A stretch of 64,000 bases of DNA from Asterias amurensis (taxonomy: Eukaryota > Echinodermata > Asteroidea > Forcipulatida > Asteriidae): contig NC_092660.1 of assembly GCF_032118995.1 (NCBI RefSeq), positions 3,983,501 to 4,047,500 of the forward strand. Direction: 5' to 3'. The notes under the pieces were generated by a model. That model worked only from the letters and a program-made list of their open reading frames with translations, ran no database searches and was not told the origin of the DNA. The translations under genes and the position numbers were made by a program. Shown here one piece after another: positions 3,001-53,275 of the stretch (the stretch's first letter is position 1; every line of letters starts with the position of its first letter).

Positions 3001-5271
3001 CTGGTCCTAACTCGAGATAACACTAGTCCTGACTCTTTGTGAAATCCACCCGAGTGCCTTTAAATTAAATGTAGAAACAAAATTTGACATGACTTGATAG
3101 ATCGGAACGAAGGGAGTACACTCAAGCTACGCATGCACAAGAAACCAGTTCTAGCCATAGCATCGGACGAGAACTACATCATATCGGGAAGCGAGGATTC
3201 TACGATCAATGTGTTCGATCGACGAGCTGCAAAGACCTACAAAACCATCAAGGTATAAAACCACTGTAATAAGGAGTTAATTTTAAAAGAAAATACTAAA
3301 AGCACGCATATCGGTAACTTAGTGATGCTCAAAGACGCTTTAACATACAATATTTTCCTGCAGGGTATGTGGGACTACATTTAAATTATGAGACCTAATC
3401 CTTTTGCATTGCACCATGTAATGGTTTACAAGGTGCTTTGGCGCAATATGCAGTCAATCAAACCAGGAACATCTGGGCAAACCCCTTCTCTTTGCGATAA
3501 GTGCACTGGGTTCTTTTACGTGCCTTACACAACACACGGGACCGATGGCTTTATGTCCCATCCGAAGGACGAAGCAATGGTTAAGTGTCTTGCTTATACA
3601 AGTGTCACGACTGGGATTCGAACCCACACTCTGTTTATCAGAAACACCAGAGTGTGAATCCGACCACAACACTTTAGGGGTATAGGGAGACACTGTTTAA
3701 AAAGTCTATTGTGATGCCCAAGAGTTTTTCTAAGTTGCCTGTAAAAAAAAAAATCCTAATATGCCAAGGCCTGGATTCAATCTTGTAATCTGATAAACTG
3801 ATTGTTTATTACTTTGATGTTTCTTTTGTTCCCCAGCTGGATAAGTTCCCATTGTGTATGTCTTATGATCTCGGTCAGCTATGGGTTGGAAAGAAAAACG
3901 GACAAGTGGATTTGCTTGATCCAACCCATGGGGAGTTTGACGTCGTACAGGTAAGAGTTTTGTCCTAGAGAATTTTTACTTAGTTTTTTTTTTTTTTCAC
4001 CATTATTCACTTACAGAGCTATGCGTATAAGCGAAGAATGCCAACCCATGTGGACTACGCGCAAACACAAGTAGAAATTCCCTGCTAACTTGTGAAATAC
4101 ACTTGATGTAAGGGCATGTAATTCCCTGCATTCATAAGCGCTGTGAACAAAGCGTGCGCAGAATTCCCTGCTTCATTAGCACTGGTTCTTTGCTTACGGT
4201 AAGCAGAGCCATGAAAATTTGACCTTGGTGGCAATCAATTAAGCTAGTTAGCAATTTGTTTTGAAGTTTTCCTGCATTTTCTTTTTCAGACTTACGACGT
4301 TGGACACACAGGGAAAGTCACAGACATCACCCACAGTCTGGGGTCTATAATCACCTGCTCTACCGACAAAAAAATTAGAGTAAGTAATCATTCTTTATGA
4401 TGTCCGGGATGGAAGGGTAGCTGCCTAGCATGTCTAAAACCTAAGCTACGAAAAGTTTTGTAATCTCCAGGGGTTTTGGGCGATCCAGTTAGTAAATGGC
4501 TGGGCGGTTTCGGGGTTGGCACAGAGACTTAGAGGTTATATCACATGTTCATGTGACCAAACAGAGTTCATAAACTCTCAGATGTGTTTATTATCGATGA
4601 TTATTGTTGTGCCTTCTAAAATCAACAGATCCATGAGCCAAACCATAACCCTTCCACATTCCGGGTCATCGACTGTCAGACATCCCTCGCTTCTCTGAAT
4701 ACTAACACCAACGTCTTAGCTGCAGCAGGCAGTGATTGCTGTGTCAAAATCTGGAGACCGATCCGAGAGCCAGAGTCCGAAGGTACGAAGGAACGGAACT
4801 TGGGAATGAAGAAAACAAATGGCAATTGTGATATGACTTATTGGGTCTCGTAGTTTTGCAATAACTTCAAACCTTTTAGCCCCAATGGCCCCTTGTCGAC
4901 TGTGCACTATACTTTGCTTGAGCCCCAATGGCAAAATCTGGAGACCGATCCGAGAGCCGGAGTCCGAAGGTACGAAGGCACGGAACTTTGGAATGAAGAA
5001 AACAAATGGCAATTGTGATATGACATATTGGGTCTCGTAGTTTTGCAATAACTTCAAACCTTTTAGCCCCAACAGCCCCTTGTCGACTGTGCACTATACT
5101 TTGCTTGAGCCCCAATGGCGACTTTAGTCACCCAAGAACACACAAAAACATTTGATAGATTCCAATTCCTAATTCACTCATTGTTTATCTTCAACAGAAG
5201 CTGCAACGGCCAGAGCTTTGGAAAGAAAAGAACAGCATGTACCTCCAGATTTAGTGTGGGTTCCGTTATAA
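1..5271 (+). CDS. FBXW9: F-box/WD40 repeat protein 9, 3' part (last 8 exons)
   Basis: Substrate-receptor subunit of an SCF-type ubiquitin ligase by family. Only the WD40 propeller part is in the window and the F-box lies off the left edge. Exons: 1-91, 1443-1555, 2049-2140, 3101-3252, 3837-3950, 4290-4379, 4629-4782, 5198-5271. All introns are GT-AG and all phases agree, giving 292 residues before the TAA at 5269. WD-type blades are visible: VWDLRRLD in the first exon, SWDQWINLWD, AGAYDKHVYVFDKR, SGSEDSTINVFDRR, LWVGKKNGQVDLLDP, TCSTDKKIRI and AAGSDCCVKIWRP. The C-terminus PPDLVWVPL follows a short charged helix. A 187-bp tandem duplication covers the end of the seventh listed exon and its donor. 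FBXW9 is my recognition of the order and spacing of these blades; another FBXW member is less likely. Confidence 0.82.
119..1125 (+). repeat. 92-bp tandem array derived from a tRNA-SINE, 11 copies
   Basis: Eleven units lie in FBXW9 intron 1, with the GTATC anchor at 131, 221, 313, 405, 497, 589, 681, 773, 865, 957 and 1049. The period is 92 bp except for a first step of 90. Most units carry GGTTCGAATCC, a pol III B-box. A solo copy of the same segment lies on the minus strand at 24300-24415 with a different 5' part. Units with ATCATTCC recur at 313, 497 and 681, showing a 184-bp dimer structure. Confidence 0.9.
2166..2245 (+). mobile_element. Fragment of TTAA-type family A
   Basis: The piece starts just past the donor of the FBXW9 exon ending at 2140. 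It matches the interior of the family A element (see 6431): GGAGCCGTT, then a TATACTATCA block, then CATTACCAAGTAA. Neither terminus is present. Confidence 0.55.
2903..3052. mobile_element. Family B palindromic MITE
   Basis: About 150 bp ending in inverted GGGGTCGATTTCACAAAG. The interior repeats TTAGGACTAGTCCTAA, itself a palindrome. Related copies lie at 10021, 13132, 35927 and 55960. It sits in an FBXW9 intron 50 bp upstream of an exon. Confidence 0.8.
3386..3665 (-). mobile_element. tRNA-derived SINE, family S1
   Basis: On the minus strand it reads from the tRNA-like B-box GGGTTCGAATCCCAG through GTGACACTTG and GGATGGGACATAAAGCC to the ACAAGGTGC region. Copies at 20055 and 33331 share this body. 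The A-box half is replaced or missing. It lies in an FBXW9 intron. Confidence 0.75.
4015..4230. mobile_element. Possible family C-like MITE remnant
   Basis: CTGCTAACTTGTGAAATACAC and GCTTACGGTAAGCAG resemble blocks of the elements at 32163 and 43437. The ends are worn, so this is tentative. Confidence 0.35.
4745..5118 (+). repeat. 187-bp tandem duplication over an exon-intron border
   Basis: Copy 1 is 4745-4931 and copy 2 is 4932-5118, with only a few differences. Each holds the last 38 bases of the exon ending at 4782, its GTACG donor and 149 bases of intron. The second copy has no acceptor of its own, so it is probably intronic. Using its donor would put a stop in frame. Confidence 0.9.
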
Positions 5272-5885
5272 TACCTAGGTTGTCATTTGTATACTATATA
5301 GATTCATTGTGCGAGTGCAAAAAGGGCTTGAAAAGCAGCTTACATAATCTACGTGTTTGTAACTACTGCACAGACCATTACAGAATAGCTTTATTAAAGA
5401 AAGAGGTTAGAATAACACATCCGTTTCCTCTGGCAACTCACACCTGTTATTTCTATTTAATTCGTGTTTTTACAAACAGTGGACTTCACAAAGCAGCAAC
5501 TGACTGCCCCAGGCAGATAAACTAATAATCCATTAAGTTTTATGACCCGTGTAACTCAATGTCAACACACTCACTCATTGCAAAGGATGTATACTTTTCA
5601 AATTTTTGTGACAAATTCAGAAATGTTTTAATGAAGCTTTATCGTCACGCATCGTACTCACTCAAACTGTAACAAATGTGATACCAAAAAAACACATGGG
5701 TATTTGCTGTGTGAGGGTCAGAACAAAAGTAAATGTTTTGCATGTCTGTATAGAACCTAACCATCAACTGTACTCCTATGGTGTTCGCCATATCTCGTAA
5801 CGGCTAACAACATGGTTTGTAATTTCCTGTGTTTAATGTGCTCTCGTCGCATAAGGGGCAGTATCCACCGAAATAATAGTTCAGT

Positions 5886-6053
5886 TGCCGATTTCACAAA
5901 ACTCTTCCTAACTTAGGGTTAATCTTATGACTTAGGACGAGTCCCAACCCTGCACTGTAGCATGCAGACCTTAAGATTAATCCTAAGTTAGGACGAGTTA
6001 CTCGTCCTAACTCGAGATAGGATTAATCCTAGCGTTTCATGAAATCGTCTGCA
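5886..6053. mobile_element. Family B' MITE (subfamily of B)
   Basis: Inverted ends GCCGATTTCAC / GAAATCGTCTGC flank TTAGGACGAGT blocks with a central TGCACTGTAGCATGCAG. The same arrangement is found at 17131 and 37175. Confidence 0.75.
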
Positions 6054-6430
6054 GGTCCATTGCACACATGCTTGAACATTCACTATATGAATGCAAGATT
6101 TCAAGCAGTGATCATACAATCGATATATCAAAGGCGCACCCGTAGATAAGATGCAGTGACTTCTGAAGGTCAGATAAGACTCATCTTGTACACAGGAAAT
6201 TATGGTGACAAGTTTACAAATATAATTATGTTTGTAAAATTACATACAGCATAATTTACCCCTACTATTTGTGTCCAATGTTATGTGTGTGAATTACTAT
6301 GTTTAGTTTATATAAAGTGAGTTTATTATTTTTATCTGTACATAGTTTGGTGTGCAAGTCAACATAAGTCAAATTATGTTCACAGAAAATGATTTAAAGA
6401 GTTCCGATTACTACTGAGCTTTATTTATTA

Positions 6431-6815
6431 TTAAAGGCAGTGGACACTCTTGGTAATTGTCAAAGACTAGCCTACACAGTTGGTGTATCTCAACATATGC
6501 ATAAAATAACAAACCTGTGAAAATTTGAGCTCAATCGGTCATCAAAGTTGCGAGATAATAATGAAAGAAGAAAACACCCTTGTCACACGAAGTTGTGTGC
6601 GTTTAGATGGTTGATTTTGAGACCTCGAGTTCTAAATCTGAGGTCTCGAAATCAAATTTGTGGAAAATTACTTCTTTTCGAAAACTATGTCACTTTAGAG
6701 GGTGCCGATTCTCATAATGTTTTATACCATCAACCTCTCCCCATTACTCGTTACCAAGTAAGGTTTTGTGCTAATAATTATTTTGAGTAATTACCAATAG
6801 TGTCCAGTGACTTTT
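6431..6815 (+). mobile_element. TTAA-type MITE, family A
   Basis: Begins TTAAAGGCAGTGGACAC and ends GTAATTACCAATAGTGTCC with a worn terminus. The body carries AAAATTTGAGCTCAAT and GAGGTCTCGAAATCAA. The family is non-autonomous: about 370 bp, inverted ends, no protein. Confidence 0.85.
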
Positions 6816-7133
6816 AGCAAGTCGGATGAAAAAAATGATGGAAACAAATCGGAAAATTAATGAAAACAAAAGATGATGTAGCTTGGAATGTTTTAATCAA
6901 AAATCAATACATTTCCATTCAATGCCTTCAGTAATGTAACTTAGAACGGTTTATGTGAATAAAGGCTGCAGTAAATTTTACTATAAAAATTAATACAGAA
7001 GACATTTTGGTTTTTTATTTCAAATTTGTTGCTTTTATAATGGGTCCAACTTCATAGAGCTGCCAGAGCGCAAACAAAGTTGCTAAGCGAAAAAAACAAA
7101 ATTATGTTTACCAGAATAAGGTTTCGGAACTTA

Positions 7134-7496
7134 TAGGAACACATTGTCTCGGATTGGACGAGTTGGTCTATAAAAATATTGTAACCGTTTGTTATAAAGT
7201 GCATCTGTTTAGAAAGATTTTGTCAAATACAATGATCCACACAAATTTGCCTCGAAATTGCATGGTTTTCCTTTTACTGTGCGAACTAACACAGTCGGCC
7301 ATTTATGGGAGTCAAAAATTTGACTCCCATGTTAGCCGACAAGGTAAAAGGAAAACCGTGCAATTTCAAGGCATGTTTGCATGGATCATTGTATTCTACT
7401 TTTACAACATCTTTCTAACCATATGCATTTTATAACAAACGGTTACAGAACGCTTTTCAAAGACCAACTCGACCGATCCAAGGCAACGTGTTCCTT
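7134..7496. mobile_element. Long foldback MITE, family F
   Basis: An almost complete palindrome. The two arms, starting AGGAACAC and ending GTGTTCCT, meet at GGGAGTCAAA / TTTGACTCCC near 7310-7328. No protein is encoded. A second copy lies at 23757. A family B' fragment follows directly at 7500. Confidence 0.85.
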
Positions 7497-7499
7497 TTA

Positions 7500-7552
7500 C
7501 TCGTCCTAAGATTAATCTTACGCTAGGAAGAGTTTGGTGAAATCGACTGCAG
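7500..7552. mobile_element. Family B' fragment
   Basis: TACTCGTCCTAAGATTAATC through GTGAAATCGACTGCAG matches one end of the family B' element. It abuts the foldback element. Confidence 0.6.
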
Positions 7553-8072
7553 TATCCTCTCAGCACTATTGTGAAGTAGATCAAACAGCAGGATTTCTTC
7601 GTATCTGGTCAAACTTCTAGTTATTATATTTTATTAGGCAGAGAATAAATTTCAGCTAAAAAGGCTGACAATTCTCATTCCTGCAGTTGTACATTGAGAG
7701 ATGTTTTCATGGACTTTGTGTACAAACTAAACAATTGCACAAAACACTAAACCTAAGATAAATGCACAAACATTGCACAATAAAGTATTTGCATCAAGTT
7801 TGGATTAGTGAAATTCTACAAAGAAATAGCTAAGTTTTAATACTTTCTTGTATTTTTTCTATCATAAGTCATTGCTCAAATATAGTTTGTAATCTCTAAT
7901 GAAAAATACATTCAATCAATTATGAGCACAATGAATCACATACATGTATATACAAACATATATACAAATAACCCGTCATTATCAAACTGTTTGCTAAAAA
8001 AACTATTACAAAGCTAGCAATTAACAAAAACAACAAAGATATTTTTTCTGGATAAATTAGGAATCAAAAGGC

Positions 8073-29000: not shown

Positions 29001-32000
29001 TGACACACAAGGCCTGAAGGCCACTTCAAGGTGTGGGCTACAATTATTTTTTCCAGAGGTCGTTGCCACCTACTCCTAGGGCTGAATCAGGGTTACCCCC
29101 TTTCACAGTCCATACGATCTGTAGGCTTGGGTATCATCAATTCGAAGCCTGGCCGGTAGAGCAGAAAGCACTACCTCCCAAATTTTATGTGTCACGACCG
29201 GGATCCGAACCCACACCCTGCTGATCAAACACCAGTGCTTGAATCGGGTGCTCTTAACCGCTCGGCAATGACACTGCCACATGGCCCTAGCTGGGTATCT
29301 AACCAGAGCCACATTGGTGAGGGGCGAGTGCTTACACATTGGCCCCCCATGCCACAAAATAAAATTTTTGTGAATTCATTTTTTTCTAGGAGAAGGACCA
29401 GTTGATTGAAGAGTGGACCCCAGAGCCGCTGGTACCCAAGCTACCTGCCGATTATGAACCTGTCAAGTACAAACTCGTCACACAGTAAGAACACAAACAC
29501 AATATCAGCTTCAGTGTTGAAGCCATGGTGGGCGGTCCTGGGCGGGCCTGCCCAGAACTCGCGATTTTTGCCCAGCACTCTGAGAAAAATACATTATGCC
29601 GCCCAGCACAGATTTCAAATATTGTCCACTCTGCATTGATCTGAGACACAGCTTATAATGAAGAGAATCAAATGTCACAGAGCAAGAACACAAACAAAAG
29701 GCCATTCAACTTTCTTTTGTGAGCATAACATAATTTTGCTGATCCCCTTTTGCTGATTTATTTCCCACCACTAAAATTGGTCTAGCTACAACCCTGCTCA
29801 GGCCGTGTCCGAAGTGGTTGCTATGGCTACAGCTGGCTTACCGCGCCATCATGCATTGAAGTATAGGACATACTTGGCAACAGTCAAAGCCATAGCCATT
29901 ACCACAAATTCAAATACGGTTTCACATTCAGTATTGGTGCAAAGTGCTTTGATATCGGTGCAAGAGTAAAGGCGAAATGAAATAAAATCATTCTCAGGCC
30001 TGTCATGCTTCAATTTTGGAGGGCAAAGGCACCAAGGCATTTTCTCCTTGGCAAAGGGCACCCTATGAGGAAATTATGTATATTTATACGGGAGCATTTC
30101 AAGGGCTTCAAGTCAATGACCAGGGGGCATGGAGGCAATCGCCTTCGTTGCCTCCGTGAAGGATCAGGCCTGGCTTCACATTCAATATCGATTCAATGGT
30201 ACTTTGATATCGATGCAAGAGTAAAGCCCAAACAAAATATAAAATTCTTCCATCATTTCCAAATCTTAAAAGAACACTTGCTTCAGACATAATTTTCTTC
30301 CTACTTTACTCTGATTTCCAATTTGTTTGCTCTTGGGAAAAAATCAGACAAGTTGTGATTTAAAAGCCTGAAAAGTCCATTAAAAGCATCAGCATGTGTT
30401 CATTTAGGTCAGCCCATTTACTCTGTAAAATGTTCCTACTTTTTTTTCCGAGGACAAAATATCATGTAATTATTGATTTGTGGTTATTTGTTTGTTACAG
30501 GCAGGGTGGAAGCATGCTGACAGTTGATGGCAAGCAAGGAATCAATCTTGGAACATTTAACTTCCTTGGAATGCTGGGCAGGAAAGAGACAGAGGTATGA
30601 TAAGATTATAATGTTAGCGCGAGCATCTGGGCTTGATTTCCAAAGAGCTAAAATTGATCTTAAGTTTGAATTAATCTTAACTGATGAGCAAAGTGTGGTT
30701 TCAAAACACAAATCACTGTGGTAATACCATAGAAATAGAATCCGGAGAACGCTGAGTGTCTCATTGTGCATGCGGTTTCGTTGTGAGACCATTTTTATGG
30801 ACGCGCATACGCCATTTTTTGTAACGCGTGTATGGCAGAATATTTTGCCATACAATTTTGCCATACAATGACAATCATTGACCAATGCAAACACTAGAAA
30901 CGGTCTATGTGCGCTGACATCTTGCCATTTTGCCATACACACGTCTCGCGCGATGATAATTTTGCCAGATGCGCGTATCGCGGGGTATCTATGCGCCGCA
31001 TTCACAGACGACACAGAGGGTGGCCGAGCTCAGCGTTCTGATAGCTCATCTTATGGTGGGTCTTAGTGCTCTGTGAAGGTAGAAGGATGACCATACTTAA
31101 CGGCACAATATACCTTCATTCATGGATTTCTTAATATTAAGATGACCATCTGTTTTTACTGTTTTTGTTTCTAATATTACAGGACGCTGCCGTCAAAAGT
31201 CTGAAGAAGTACGGAGTTGGAACATGTGGCCCTAGAGGGTTTTATGGAACGATGGGTAAGAGTCCTGTGACGTCATTCTCCAAATCTATTTGACCTCCAT
31301 AATAAATGAGAGAAAGAAAACAAATTCTGAATGTGTATTCCAAAGTTAGTTGGGGAGAGACTAAACATCACTCTCATGTCTTTACCCCCTTTGCATACAT
31401 TGTCATAAGAACTGGATTTTTTTATATTTTTATTTATTATTATTTTTTTATACTAATTTTGGTTTTTACCCATACACCGATGTGTATTTGCACTGTATGC
31501 TCAGTACTTCCCCGAGTCCTGTGAAAAAATATCACAGGCATATTACTCGGGTGGGATTCGAACCCACGACCTTTGCAATTCTAGAGCAGTGTCTTACCAA
31601 CTAGACTACCGAGGTTGCCCGGTAGCTAGAGGCAGTTCGAATCCTATGTTTTGGCAGCGGGTACCGCAACGATATAATAGATGTTAAAATATTATTTGTT
31701 TATTATGCAAGTCGCCTGACACACAAGGCCTGAAGGCCACTTCAAGGTGTAGGCTACAATTATATTTTCTAGAGGCCGTTGCCACCTACTCCGAGGGCTG
31801 AAACAGGGCTACCCCTTTCATAATCCATACGAATGTGATCTCAAAAGATTGTCTGAATTTCTCAGGCCTCTATATCCCCACACACTCAGAGCGAGAATTC
31901 AAATGTCAATGTGTTTCAAGCATTTCCAAGATTTTTACGGACTGTGTAGGGGGTAACGCTGATTGCAGCCCCAGGAGTAGGTGGCATTGTGCCCCCTGGT

Positions 32001-49673: not shown

Positions 49674-52600
49674 ATGGTGAGAATTAATTGTAGTTAGGTT
49701 AAAATCCATATCATCCTTTACTTTTAAGAATTCAAATTGGCCAAAATGTTTCATAAAAGTGGAGAGGGAGGGTTACTTTATATGTTGAATTAAATTTTAC
49801 TACTGTAAGGATCCATTTAGTGATAAAAAATGCAGATATTATATACGCGTTAAAATTTCATATACGACTGCGGTATGAGATACATCACGTTAAACGTTGC
49901 ACCACACAAGAAGTGTATCGTGCATCCGGATTCGTGTTCAGAAATTAGCGTTGTGTTTTCTTAGTTTTACAGTTTTTCATTAAAGGTAAACTAAACCTGC
50001 GTTAATTTGTTTTTTTTTAATTTAAAATCTATCATCAAAAGTCTTATCTTTCAAAAACAATCTTCCGAAAAAGAAGAAAATAAACTGGTTGTCAAGTTTT
50101 CGATTTTTGGCCTACCGTCTTTTTTATTTTAAAGCTTAACAGAAACCCGGACCATAATACATGACATGCTGAACATGTCCCTTAACTTTTTATCAGATTA
50201 GTGTCTTTAAACTCAATAATGTTGTCTCAGTGATTTTCATAGAACTACATCAGCAAGCCTCAACATTTTTGTTAAAATGTGCTCTCCGCAAGTGATTGCA
50301 CAGTCGCGGTGAGGGAAAGTTTCTGGATCCGTATCCTGAACCATGTGAACTTTTTCATTGGTTATAAAATAAAGTAGTATCTAATTCTAATTTACCTTAT
50401 TGAGATAGGCCTTATTCCTGTTTGTAAAAATTAATGAAAGAGTGGTGGCAAAAGTTATAACTAGGGGGAAATTTCAGCAAAAATAAGCTTTTATTTCTAA
50501 TCAAAAATCATCTTGCCGCCTGAATCTTTTACTTGAGGCAAGTAATTAGTGATGAAGGGAGTCTGAAGTATAGATAATTATTGCCACTTTTTATTGGGCA
50601 AGGGGTTGTTTGGTTATTTTCCCAATGTCACAATAACATGAATTTGGGATTTTTGTTCTGTTTGTAGGGAGTGACTGATAACAATCCGAGTCTATGATGA
50701 TATCCCATGCACCACTCTTAAAGTGTCATGATGATTTACCTGACCAACCCACACCGGTCTTTCTGAGACTCATGCGTATCAAAAAAACTAAATATTTTGA
50801 CAAAATTAAAACAATTTCCTCCTAGTATTCCACACGTGTGATACACTGTGTTAAACATGCAGGCCTATATGCTTCGTTTTTGAAAGGGCAAGGGCACCAA
50901 GGCATTTTCTTCTTGGTAAGGGCACCCTATGAGGAAATTGTAAATTTGTACTGGAGCATTTCAAGGGCACCAAGGCAATGACCAGGGGACACGGAGGCAA
51001 TCGCCTTCGTTGCCTCCGTGAAGTATCAGGCCTGAACATGGTTGATGGTAGTGCATGTCTCGGGACAATTTTAAGTGTTTTATTTTGTTCCCCCTTCCAG
51101 TTCCAGTGTTTTGTGACAATTTACCCCAATCAATCATGCATTTCTTTTAATATGACTATTTGTTATTGTTTTTTACTTCTAACAGACCAAGGGTACATCG
51201 AGTTTTGGTAAGCGGCATAACAAGACCCACACCTTCTGTCGTCGGTGTGGGCGCCGTAGCTACCACATTCAGAAGAAAAGATGCGCTAGCTGTGGCTATC
51301 CAGCAAAAAAAATACGCAGTTGTGAGTAATAAATCCCTTCTCTGAAAAAAAAAAATAGCGTGTTTTTAATTTGTTTTTTTCCCCGATGTTATCAAAATTC
51401 CTTTGCCTTCAAATGTTCTTGAAAGAAGTGAGACCGGCCATCAAAGGGAGAAAGAAATAGTCCACAGTGTGTTGTATTTCCGGTGATGCACAGTCTGTAA
51501 ACCTCCTGAGTATCAAAGTCACAATCCATTTTCGTGATTCTTCTTATGCGCCACACCTCATCCCAGCTGTTCAATCTATTTCAAGTGAAGAAAATAAATT
51601 GCTGACGTGTTGTCAAACTTAACACTGGCCTGTTCATGCTAGATTTTGGGGGGTAACACGGGACTCCAATTACATTTGTACAAAATCGGCAGACCGATTA
51701 TCATAATTTATATTATACAAGCTGCAATCTGAGTCTATGATGATATCCCATGCACCACTCTTAAAGTGTCGTGATGATTTACCTGACCAACCCACACCGG
51801 TCTTTCTGAGACTCGTAACTAACCCCCAAAAAACTTGCAGCATAACTTCAAATCATCTAAACGCAAACAGATAATCAGGATAGTAGAAATGGGATGACAC
51901 CGTTTCTTTTCATTCGGCAGATAACTGGAGTGAGAAGGCAAAGAGAAGAAAGACAACCGGTACCGGGCGTATGCGTTACCTCAAGATTGTGCACAGGAGG
52001 TTCAAGTAAGTTTGTGTTTCTTGGTTTCTTCTGTTGACCACTTGTGCAGTTAGACGCGCCTATCCTGTCCGCCATTCTGGGATTCAAAATTTATTCAGAG
52101 GAATTAACTCCAAAAATGGCAGAATTGGCAGACACACATTGTGTGGAGCAGGCCTGGAATTACACCCAGGCCACGAAGGCCATCTTGGTGCCCCTTCAAA
52201 AGTTTCACATTGACTTTAAAAGATGAAATTCCAGGCCTGGGCCCAATTTCATAGAGCTGCTAAGCACAAAAATTTGCTAAGCATGAAATTCCTTCCTTGA
52301 TAAAAACAGTATAACCAGCCAAATTTCCACGTGATTTTCAGGATTAGCAAACAACAGCTGAATACCAGTAACAAGCAATATGCAACAAATGGAAATTTAG
52401 TAGATAATCCTGTTTTTATGAAGGAAGAAATTTCATGCTAAGCAAATTTTGGTGCTTAGCAGCTCTATGAAATTGGGCCCTGGAGGTGTGTTCTGCAAGG
52501 GGTCAATACTAAAAAAAAAAACTGTCTCAATGTTGGTAAAGTTAGAACAAATACTTTGGTTATAAATTTGTTACTGGAGCAAAAGCAACGCCTCTTCTTG

Positions 52601-53275
52601 AAAATCACTATGTGTAAATAATATAGCGCTTTTATTTGCAACAGTGTTTTGTTATGGTGTATGTATGGAGTGTAAGTTCATTTCAGAAAGACCTGTACAG
52701 TTGTCGTCCTACTAGATGTTTATTGCGAGTCAATGATGATAACCCATGCACCACTCTTAAGTGATGTGATGATAATATGACCAACCCACACCGGTCTTTC
52801 TGAGACTCAATTATTAACTTAAATATTAATATCAAACAATTGCCACTCAAAAAGAAAAAATTTAGCCACTCAAGGTTTTAGCCAGGATTTGTTAAAGGGA
52901 TTCAAAAAAAGCTTAACAACTCAAAACTGGATGTTCAAATTGTTCATTTTAAATAATGGATAGACCAGGGTGCCCAAAAGACACCAGACACCCTCTGGCT
53001 GACACTAAGCCGATGTCACAAAGCACAGAGATTCATCTTAAGATGGGTCGTCTCAACTAGGACTGATTTTTTTTTTGGTGAAGTTTGAGTCCAGACCTCT
53101 CCGAACCAGTTCAGAGCATTTCCTTTAAGGAGTTGACTTTCTGTTTACTTACCGTTGTAAACCCCGATAGCTGACATTTTATTCTTTGACTATTTTCAGG
53201 AATGGTTTCCGTGAGGGAACAAAGCCCAAGCCTAAGCAGAGAGGAGGTGCCGCAGCCGGTGCTGCTAAACCGTAG
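49674..53275 (+). CDS. RPL37: Ribosomal protein eL37, complete, 4 exons
   Basis: Large-subunit ribosomal protein. Exons: 49674-49676 (the start codon alone), 51186-51321, 51921-52005, 53200-53275. 300 nt, 99 residues (human 97). The protein begins [21 protein letters not shown]4 zinc finger has C19, C22, C34 and C37. [20 protein letters not shown] and HRRFKNGFREG follow, then a Lys/Ala-rich tail. A first coding exon of only ATG is common in animal ribosomal protein genes. Each of the three introns holds a box C/D snoRNA copy. Head-to-head with FBXO4. Confidence 0.97.
50688..50771 (+). ncRNA. Box C/D snoRNA, copy 1 (RPL37 intron 1)
   Basis: 84 nt closed by a GAGTC/GACTC terminal stem. C box ATGATGA at 50694-50700, C' box ATGATGA at 50728-50734, D box CTGA at 50763-50766. 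The guide stretch CCCATGCACCACT sits just before a weak D' (CTTA). 415 nt lie between it and the next exon. Confidence 0.88.
50860..51036 (-). mobile_element. Family D short repeat
   Basis: Reverse copy: AGGGCAAGGGCACCAAGGCA, AGGGCACCCTATGAGGAAAT and GAGGCAATCGCCTTCGTTGC, ending AAGTATCAGGCCTG. In RPL37 intron 1 between the snoRNA and exon 2. Confidence 0.75.
51731..51814 (+). ncRNA. Box C/D snoRNA, copy 2 (RPL37 intron 2)
   Basis: 84 nt, differing from copy 1 at one position (C' is GTGATGA, 51771-51777). C box 51737-51743, D box 51806-51809, stem GAGTC/GACTC. It ends 106 nt before the next exon. Confidence 0.9.
51875..51920 (+). other. RPL37 intron 2 3' end
   Basis: A T-rich tract and TTCGGCAG acceptor lead into the exon at 51921. 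Nothing else is seen between the snoRNA and the exon. Confidence 0.5.
52149..52236 (+). mobile_element. Truncated family D repeat
   Basis: GCAGGCCTGGAATTACACCC, CACGAAGGCCATCTTGGTGC and AAGATGAAATTCCAGGCCTG. It runs straight into the family C copy. Confidence 0.6.
52239..52480. mobile_element. Family C MITE
   Basis: GGGCCCAATTTCATAGAGCT mirrors AGCTCTATGAAATTGGGCCC. The interior has TTTGCTAAGCATGAAATTCC. In RPL37 intron 3, upstream of snoRNA copy 3. Confidence 0.87.
52727..52808 (+). ncRNA. Box C/D snoRNA, copy 3 (RPL37 intron 3)
   Basis: 82 nt. C box ATGATGA 52733-52739, C' GTGATGA 52766-52772, D box CTGA 52800-52803, stem GAGTC/GACTC. It keeps both conserved blocks, CCCATGCACCACTCTTAA and CCAACCCACACCGGTCTTTC, but differs around C' and has ATGA where copies 1 and 2 have an internal CTGA. 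Confidence 0.87.

Follow-up and report, generated by a model that had tools for sequence, protein, structure and literature searches.

In X. laevis, all introns of the gene for ribosomal protein S8 contain the same snoRNA, U17 (PMC7601244). Intragenic duplication has been described as a source of snoRNA paralogs spread over several introns of a host (PMC2653536), snoRNA copies lie in neighbouring RPL13A introns of sponges (PMC3412847), and a one-snoRNA-per-intron mode has been described (PMC2780460). A system with the same host gene is HBII-240 (SNORD72), tabulated for intron 3 of chicken RPL37 with 28S U4075 as its target (PMC2653536). A partial literature search found no publication on an echinoderm RPL37 snoRNA.

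Here, we describe the RPL37 gene of an echinoderm, in which each intron carries a copy of the same box C/D snoRNA. The same-snoRNA-per-intron arrangement is already known from other animals, and RPL37 is a clean, well-formed echinoderm example of it. Like S8 of X. laevis with its U17 copies, RPL37 encodes a ribosomal protein and harbours a single kind of snoRNA in all of its introns, but U17 is an H/ACA RNA and no methylation guide, and both host and animal are different. The original report of the X. laevis case is said to be that of Cecconi in 1994. Like chicken HBII-240, the RNA is a C/D snoRNA hosted in RPL37; the chicken RNA differs in its tabulated target and in being tabulated as a single copy. 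RPL37 thus offers a compact, well-bounded case for studying snoRNA multiplication inside ribosomal protein genes.

Three snoRNA copies in the introns of RPL37

The window, that is the whole stretch of 64 kb that was analysed (C13:3983501-4047500), belongs to a single genome of 491.5 Mb in 23 contigs, considered without relatives. The coding region of RPL37 starts with ATG at 49674, stops at 53275 and comprises four exons; joined, they translate into a product of 99 aa, which is matched by Pfam Ribosomal_L37e (E 1.2e-29) and by L37 proteins in the PDB:

49674..49676, forward strand: RPL37 coding exon 1, ATG only
51186..51321, forward strand: RPL37 exon 2 (exon joining, Pfam, PDB)
51921..52005, forward strand: RPL37 exon 3 (exon joining, Pfam, PDB)
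53200..53275, forward strand: coding part of RPL37 exon 4 (exon joining, PDB)

The three introns (49677-51185, 51322-51920 and 52006-53199) all have GT..AG borders, and all three snoRNA copies lie inside them in sense orientation, as intronic snoRNAs do. Their elements are as follows:

50688..50771, forward strand: snoRNA copy 1 in RPL37 intron 1, 84 nt
51731..51814, forward strand: snoRNA copy 2 in RPL37 intron 2, 84 nt
52727..52808, forward strand: snoRNA copy 3 in RPL37 intron 3, 82 nt
50694..50700, forward strand: C box ATGATGA of copy 1 (copies 2 and 3: 51737-51743, 52733-52739)
50705..50716, forward strand: D' guide CCATGCACCACT, 12 bp to the animal's own 18S (copies 2 and 3: 51748-51759, 52744-52755)
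50717..50720, forward strand: D' box CTTA, degenerate (copies 2 and 3: 51760-51763, 52756-52759)
50728..50734, forward strand: C' box ATGATGA of copy 1 (GTGATGA in copies 2 and 3: 51771-51777, 52766-52772)
50743..50762, forward strand: D guide, 20 nt, same in all copies (copies 2 and 3: 51786-51805, 52780-52799)
50763..50766, forward strand: D box CTGA (copies 2 and 3: 51806-51809, 52800-52803)

The C, D', C' and D boxes occupy fixed places in all three copies, and each copy has a 5-bp GAGTC/GACTC stem. An initial annotation of this DNA had proposed that each RPL37 intron holds one of three paralogous box C/D snoRNAs, and coordinates, boxes, stem and a motif scan all agree with it, as does the match of a guide to 18S at a known methylation site. 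It had named the C, C' and D boxes and the stem, all of which are present, but had passed over the degenerate D' box; we call CTTA the D' box because applying the 5-nt rule to it leads to a known site (see below). The RPL37 snoRNAs are real and, judged from their sequence, probably functional.

A scan for C/D RNAs (RTGATGA, CTGA 45-110 nt further on, terminal stem of at least 5 bp) on both strands of the 64 kb returned exactly three matches, the RPL37 copies; its criteria were set after the elements had been seen, but they equal the general C/D definition without guide sequence. Forty dinucleotide shuffles of the window gave a mean of 0.025 matches (maximum 1). Alignments between copies score 82, 62 and 64 against shuffled maxima of 17, 14 and 13 (200 shuffles each). 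The copies might in principle be chance repeats or belong to an unrelated mobile element, and dispersed repeats do occur in RPL37 introns. However, searching the genome (491.5 Mb) with the 90-nt unit, with very common words skipped, yielded three matches at E <= 0.001 among the best candidates scored, all in RPL37, and the canonical C/D anatomy exceeds shuffles, so that we regard an origin of this kind as next to impossible. Three properties of the copies are less favourable or mixed. RNA folding of copies 1, 2 and 3 is unexceptional (z -1.48, -1.35 and -0.82), which was counted against the snoRNA reading; an unremarkable folding energy is expected for C/D RNAs. The distance from the copy to the 3' splice site, about 414 nt in intron 1 and 391 nt in intron 3, is long and was also counted against it. 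The external stem is better than in shuffles for copy 2 only (0/500), with 291/500 and 215/500 for copies 1 and 3.

The similarity between the copies ends abruptly. Copies 1 and 2 are alike in 88 of 90 nt (98%), whereas their flanks 7-46 nt away agree at 8/40 and 11/40 positions, which is chance level. Over all copies, only 8-16 of 40 positions in the flanks 7-46 nt outside are identical, and the scores of the 200-nt upstream flanks stay below the shuffled maxima, bearing out the earlier statement that the surrounding intron sequence is unrelated. The extents first given for the copies hold for the RNAs themselves, but the shared unit is larger, at about 90 nt, with copies 1 and 2 sharing five of six further nucleotides upstream. 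A stretch of 88/90 identical nucleotides inside unrelated flanks suggests that a short unit was copied or converted, and argues against a recent whole-intron duplication. Copying within the gene, also put forward in the initial annotation, gains support from the fact that all copies found are in RPL37 and that homology stops at the RNA ends.

Across 84 alignment columns, copies 1 and 2 differ in 1, copies 1 and 3 in 10, and copies 2 and 3 in 9. The linkers account for most of the change between copies 2 and 3: 8 of their 20 columns differ, compared to 1 of the 64 columns in boxes, stem and guides (Fisher p 2e-5, with the column classes drawn after the alignment had been seen), and the single differing functional column is a gap of ambiguous placement. 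The diverged linkers of copy 3 might indicate that only one copy is functional and the others are decaying or non-expressed duplicates. We consider this improbable, given that none of the three copies has lost a box, the stem or a guide, and that changes are concentrated in the linkers.

Predicted targets of the two guides

The D' guide pairs over 12 bp (including one G-U) with positions 1275-1286 of the 18S rRNA in the animal's own rDNA, placing position 5 opposite G1279, as expected of a methylation guide. The duplex has an energy of -22.3 kcal/mol, and 0 of 40 shuffled guides were as good, in a test that slightly favours real guides (shuffled ones scanned at step 8, real ones at 5); when contiguous pairing was scored instead, the guide was equalled or bettered once among 60 shuffled guides. 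SNORD33 has five copies in this genome; these are complementary to 18S 1273-1285 and are directed at U1277, two bases 5' of G1279. Target tables assign U33 to Um1326 and U32 to Gm1328 (PMC3511168; PMC8817022). In the second table the human guide is printed as U232A, and the yeast number of the Gm1328 site differs between the two papers (Gm1269 vs Gm1271). Because the 2-nt spacing is the same as that of Um1326 and Gm1328, G1279 can be equated with human Gm1328, which places the RPL37 snoRNA in the 18S Gm1328 guide class (U32/snR40/snoR21). Hence, the RPL37 snoRNA most likely directs the conserved 18S mark at G1279, and its D' guide, by pointing at the Gm1328 equivalent, suggests a functional counterpart of U32, snR40 and snoR21.

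The likeness to U32 (SNORD32A), yeast snR40 and plant snoR21 lies in the same 18S G being targeted by the 5-nt rule. In human U32, the Gm1328 guide is the D guide and the host is RPL13A. The RPL37 copies, by contrast, carry the Gm1328 guide upstream of D' and in another host, suggesting that this guide can occupy a different host gene and a different guide position than in human U32.

At gathering threshold, Rfam models found only a tRNA in the 64-kb window and no family for any RPL37 copy. Below the threshold, two families show weak similarity to all three copies through the D' guide. RF00300 (snoZ221_snoR21b, plant) scores 31.7, 27.9 and 27.1 bits with a cut-off of 44, and RF00533 (snoMe18S-Gm1358, fly) scores 28.8, 26.8 and 26.4 bits with a cut-off of 50. 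Both have the D' guide block CATGCACCACTCT, the C box and the D' placement in common with the RPL37 copies, whereas the rest of the RNA is unlike them. RF00133 (SNORD33/SNORD32) reaches 20.4 bits against a cut-off of 44, with copy 3 alone at E <= 10, while the five true members elsewhere in the genome score 57-65 bits. A homology of the RPL37 snoRNA to SNORD33 was considered and dropped, as the C box accounts for most of the agreement in the alignment.

Further Gm1328 guides were sought genome-wide with the exact pattern CATGCACCRYTCTKA, a search that would miss variants; it occurs at five places, three of them in RPL37, and the reversed-pattern control gave none. For the other two places (C15 and C6), inspection by eye of about 100 nt on the upstream side revealed no C box. 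The locus labelled L030 scores 20.8 bits for RF00300 (E 0.86).

The D guide is the same over 20 nt in all three copies while the linkers differ as described above, and its conservation therefore suggests a second role. Scans of the animal's own 18S, 5.8S, spacers and 5' part of the 28S yielded no convincing target for it. A 28S segment (L025:3665-3677), which we take to be an expansion segment, forms 12 of 13 pairs with the D guide at -24.6 kcal/mol and was rejected, as 5 of 40 shuffled guides match this energy. The 3' part of the 28S was not found in the assembly by the queries used, one of which was partly inaccurate. Several rDNA units end in N runs; in the unit whose 28S is longest, the sequence is interrupted at CTCTTAAG and followed by an R2-like element. 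Comparison with the 3' part of human 28S, U1, U2 and U6 gave nothing convincing.

In the RPL37 mRNA, the best stretch for the D guide comprises 11 contiguous pairs (two of them G-U) at GTCGGTGTGGG in exon 2. Its contiguous score was equalled by 2 of 1000 shuffled guides and by 5 of 1000 shuffled mRNAs, and its duplex energy by 6 of 100 shuffled guides. Position 5 of the guide falls in a G-U pair. Pairing of snoRNAs with their own host transcripts has been discussed, with SNORD2-EIF4A2 as the model (PMC10324135). That the D guide would bind or methylate RPL37 transcripts and so feed back on its host, an idea formed after the match had been seen, appears very doubtful.

Taken as a whole, our explanation is that these are intronic C/D guides for G1279 and for a second RNA, encoded by a unit of about 90 nt that was copied within RPL37, and we give it a probability of about 0.88. 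According to this model, the copies would leave with the introns of the RPL37 pre-mRNA by splicing, and the excised introns would be trimmed to about 84 nt, the snoRNA being protected by C/D proteins. The D' guide of each copy would then direct 2'-O-methylation of 18S G1279 (human Gm1328), and the conserved D guide would act on the second RNA. The unit copied between introns would consist of the snoRNA plus about 6 nt, and extra copies plausibly raise guide dosage.

Parallel loci and routes of copying

Four other snoRNA families, chosen for known multicopy or ribosomal-protein hosting and hence a biased sample, were searched genome-wide, and all four have several copies in one locus:

SNORD33: 5 copies in 6 kb of contig C14
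SNORD36: 3 copies in 1.7 kb of contig C15, plus 1 on contig C8
SNORD18: 7 copies in 8.5 kb of contig C5
SNORA73: 3 copies in 2.6 kb of contig C12

Hosts were located by tblastn with human proteins. Six exons of RPL13A were matched; each of the five introns between them holds a single SNORD33 or SNORD34, and the remaining two SNORD33 copies flank the matched exons, one on either side. RPL4 carries one SNORD18 in six of the seven introns between matched exons, with the seventh copy past the last match, and RPL7A has SNORD36 in three of five introns between matched exons; the SNORD36 locus on C8 has no RPL7A match by tblastn. These loci resemble RPL37 in that copies are spread across the introns of one ribosomal protein gene. 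They differ in the snoRNA families involved, and their occupancy is complete only between some exons. Because other families are also multicopy per locus, the RPL37 case is one of several in this genome. A full intron set had at first been taken as surprising, a view that is weakened by these parallel loci together with the published precedents. The clear unit of about 90 nt and several parallel loci in the same animal should make copying routes and copy-number selection comparable in related echinoderms.

Two routes might have produced the copies. In the first, a processed snoRNA would have been retroposed into introns of its own host gene as a snoRNA retroposon; both PMC2653536 and PMC3412847 name this route alongside one other. 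A target-site duplication and a poly-A tail are expected of such a retroposon. The similarity between copies ends within about 6 nt of the predicted ends of the RNA, and copies 1 and 2 are followed, at a distance of 10-14 nt, by 6-7 consecutive A that may represent such a tail. Copy 3, however, has no comparable A run; the longest words common to both flanks measure 4, 4 and 5 nt, so that no target-site duplication is visible, and retroposition would be expected to scatter copies, while the only copies found sit in RPL37. We therefore treat retroposition as a tentative possibility.

The second route would be recombination or ectopic gene conversion between introns at the DNA level. Neutral drift would then have eroded the flanks, and conversion would have kept copies 1 and 2 alike. 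The confinement of the copies to one gene is consistent with this. Moreover, six SNORD18 copies in RPL4 share a 118-nt unit, compared to the 64-nt core common to all seven, and two RPL4 introns share a further upstream block of 56 nt, as copying at the DNA level would leave. On the other hand, intron duplication alone does not fit RPL37 copies 1 and 2, which are almost identical within flanks at chance level, and conversion must be added. We put the odds of this second route at about even, and between the two we lean tentatively towards recombination or conversion.

The assignment of this animal to the echinoderms, taken from the initial annotation, fits the code used on the mitochondrial contig C23: at conserved positions of COX1, AAA stands for Asn and AGA for Ser. 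A mitochondrial code with AAA for Asn and AGA for Ser is also used in flatworms.

Box C/D and U17 snoRNA copies elsewhere in the genome

All five introns between the matched exons of RPL13A (exons found with the human protein by tblastn) carry one SNORD33 or SNORD34 copy each, and one SNORD18 lies in each of six of the seven introns between the matched exons of RPL4. Six of the seven RPL4 copies have a 118-nt unit in common. The two stretches hold, in total, five SNORD33 and two SNORD34 copies in RPL13A (L023, C14:2197500-2206500) and seven SNORD18 copies in RPL4 (L043, C5:1158600-1168500). SNORD36 occurs three times in RPL7A (L035, C15:1617000-1626500) and a fourth time on a different contig (L036, C8:12558500-12567500). 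Three SNORA73 (U17) copies lie inside 2.6 kb (L044-L046, C12:8540271-8542880), and their likeness ends close to the RNA ends.

Repeats in the RPL37 introns and a tRNA gene

Features (window positions unless marked L043, the RPL4 stretch)
50884-50940: block with GGGCACCAAG...TTTTCTYCTTGGTA, RPL37 intron 1, seen by eye
L043:3480-3543 and L043:8476-8539: similar GGGCACCAAG...TTTTCTYCTTGGTA block, twice in RPL4 introns, seen by eye
52236-52483: inverted repeat of two 94-nt arms, 88% complementary, RPL37 intron 3, near snoRNA copy 3
31543-31615 (-): tRNA gene, the sole Rfam match above the gathering score (family cut-off) within the window

The block found in RPL37 intron 1 and in RPL4 introns is probably a dispersed repeat. 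The inverted repeat is MITE-like, and its match to MIR7996 is sub-threshold (71 bits vs 119).

Interrupted 28S rDNA and COX1 matches

In the C12 rDNA (L025, about 3900-7670), a 28S copy is broken at the CTCTTAAG site. An ORF there has a zinc-finger and reverse-transcriptase look and is, judged by eye, putatively R2-like. A lone 67-nt 28S fragment (L016/L024, C17:1232382-1232448) begins just beyond the R2 site; around it, no rRNA match was found at the gathering score.

Beyond the COX1 match on C23, two further matches with TGA codons lie on the 28-Mb contig C5:
C5:658874-660214
C5:675294-676634
These might represent either mitochondrial DNA copied to the nucleus or a misassembly.
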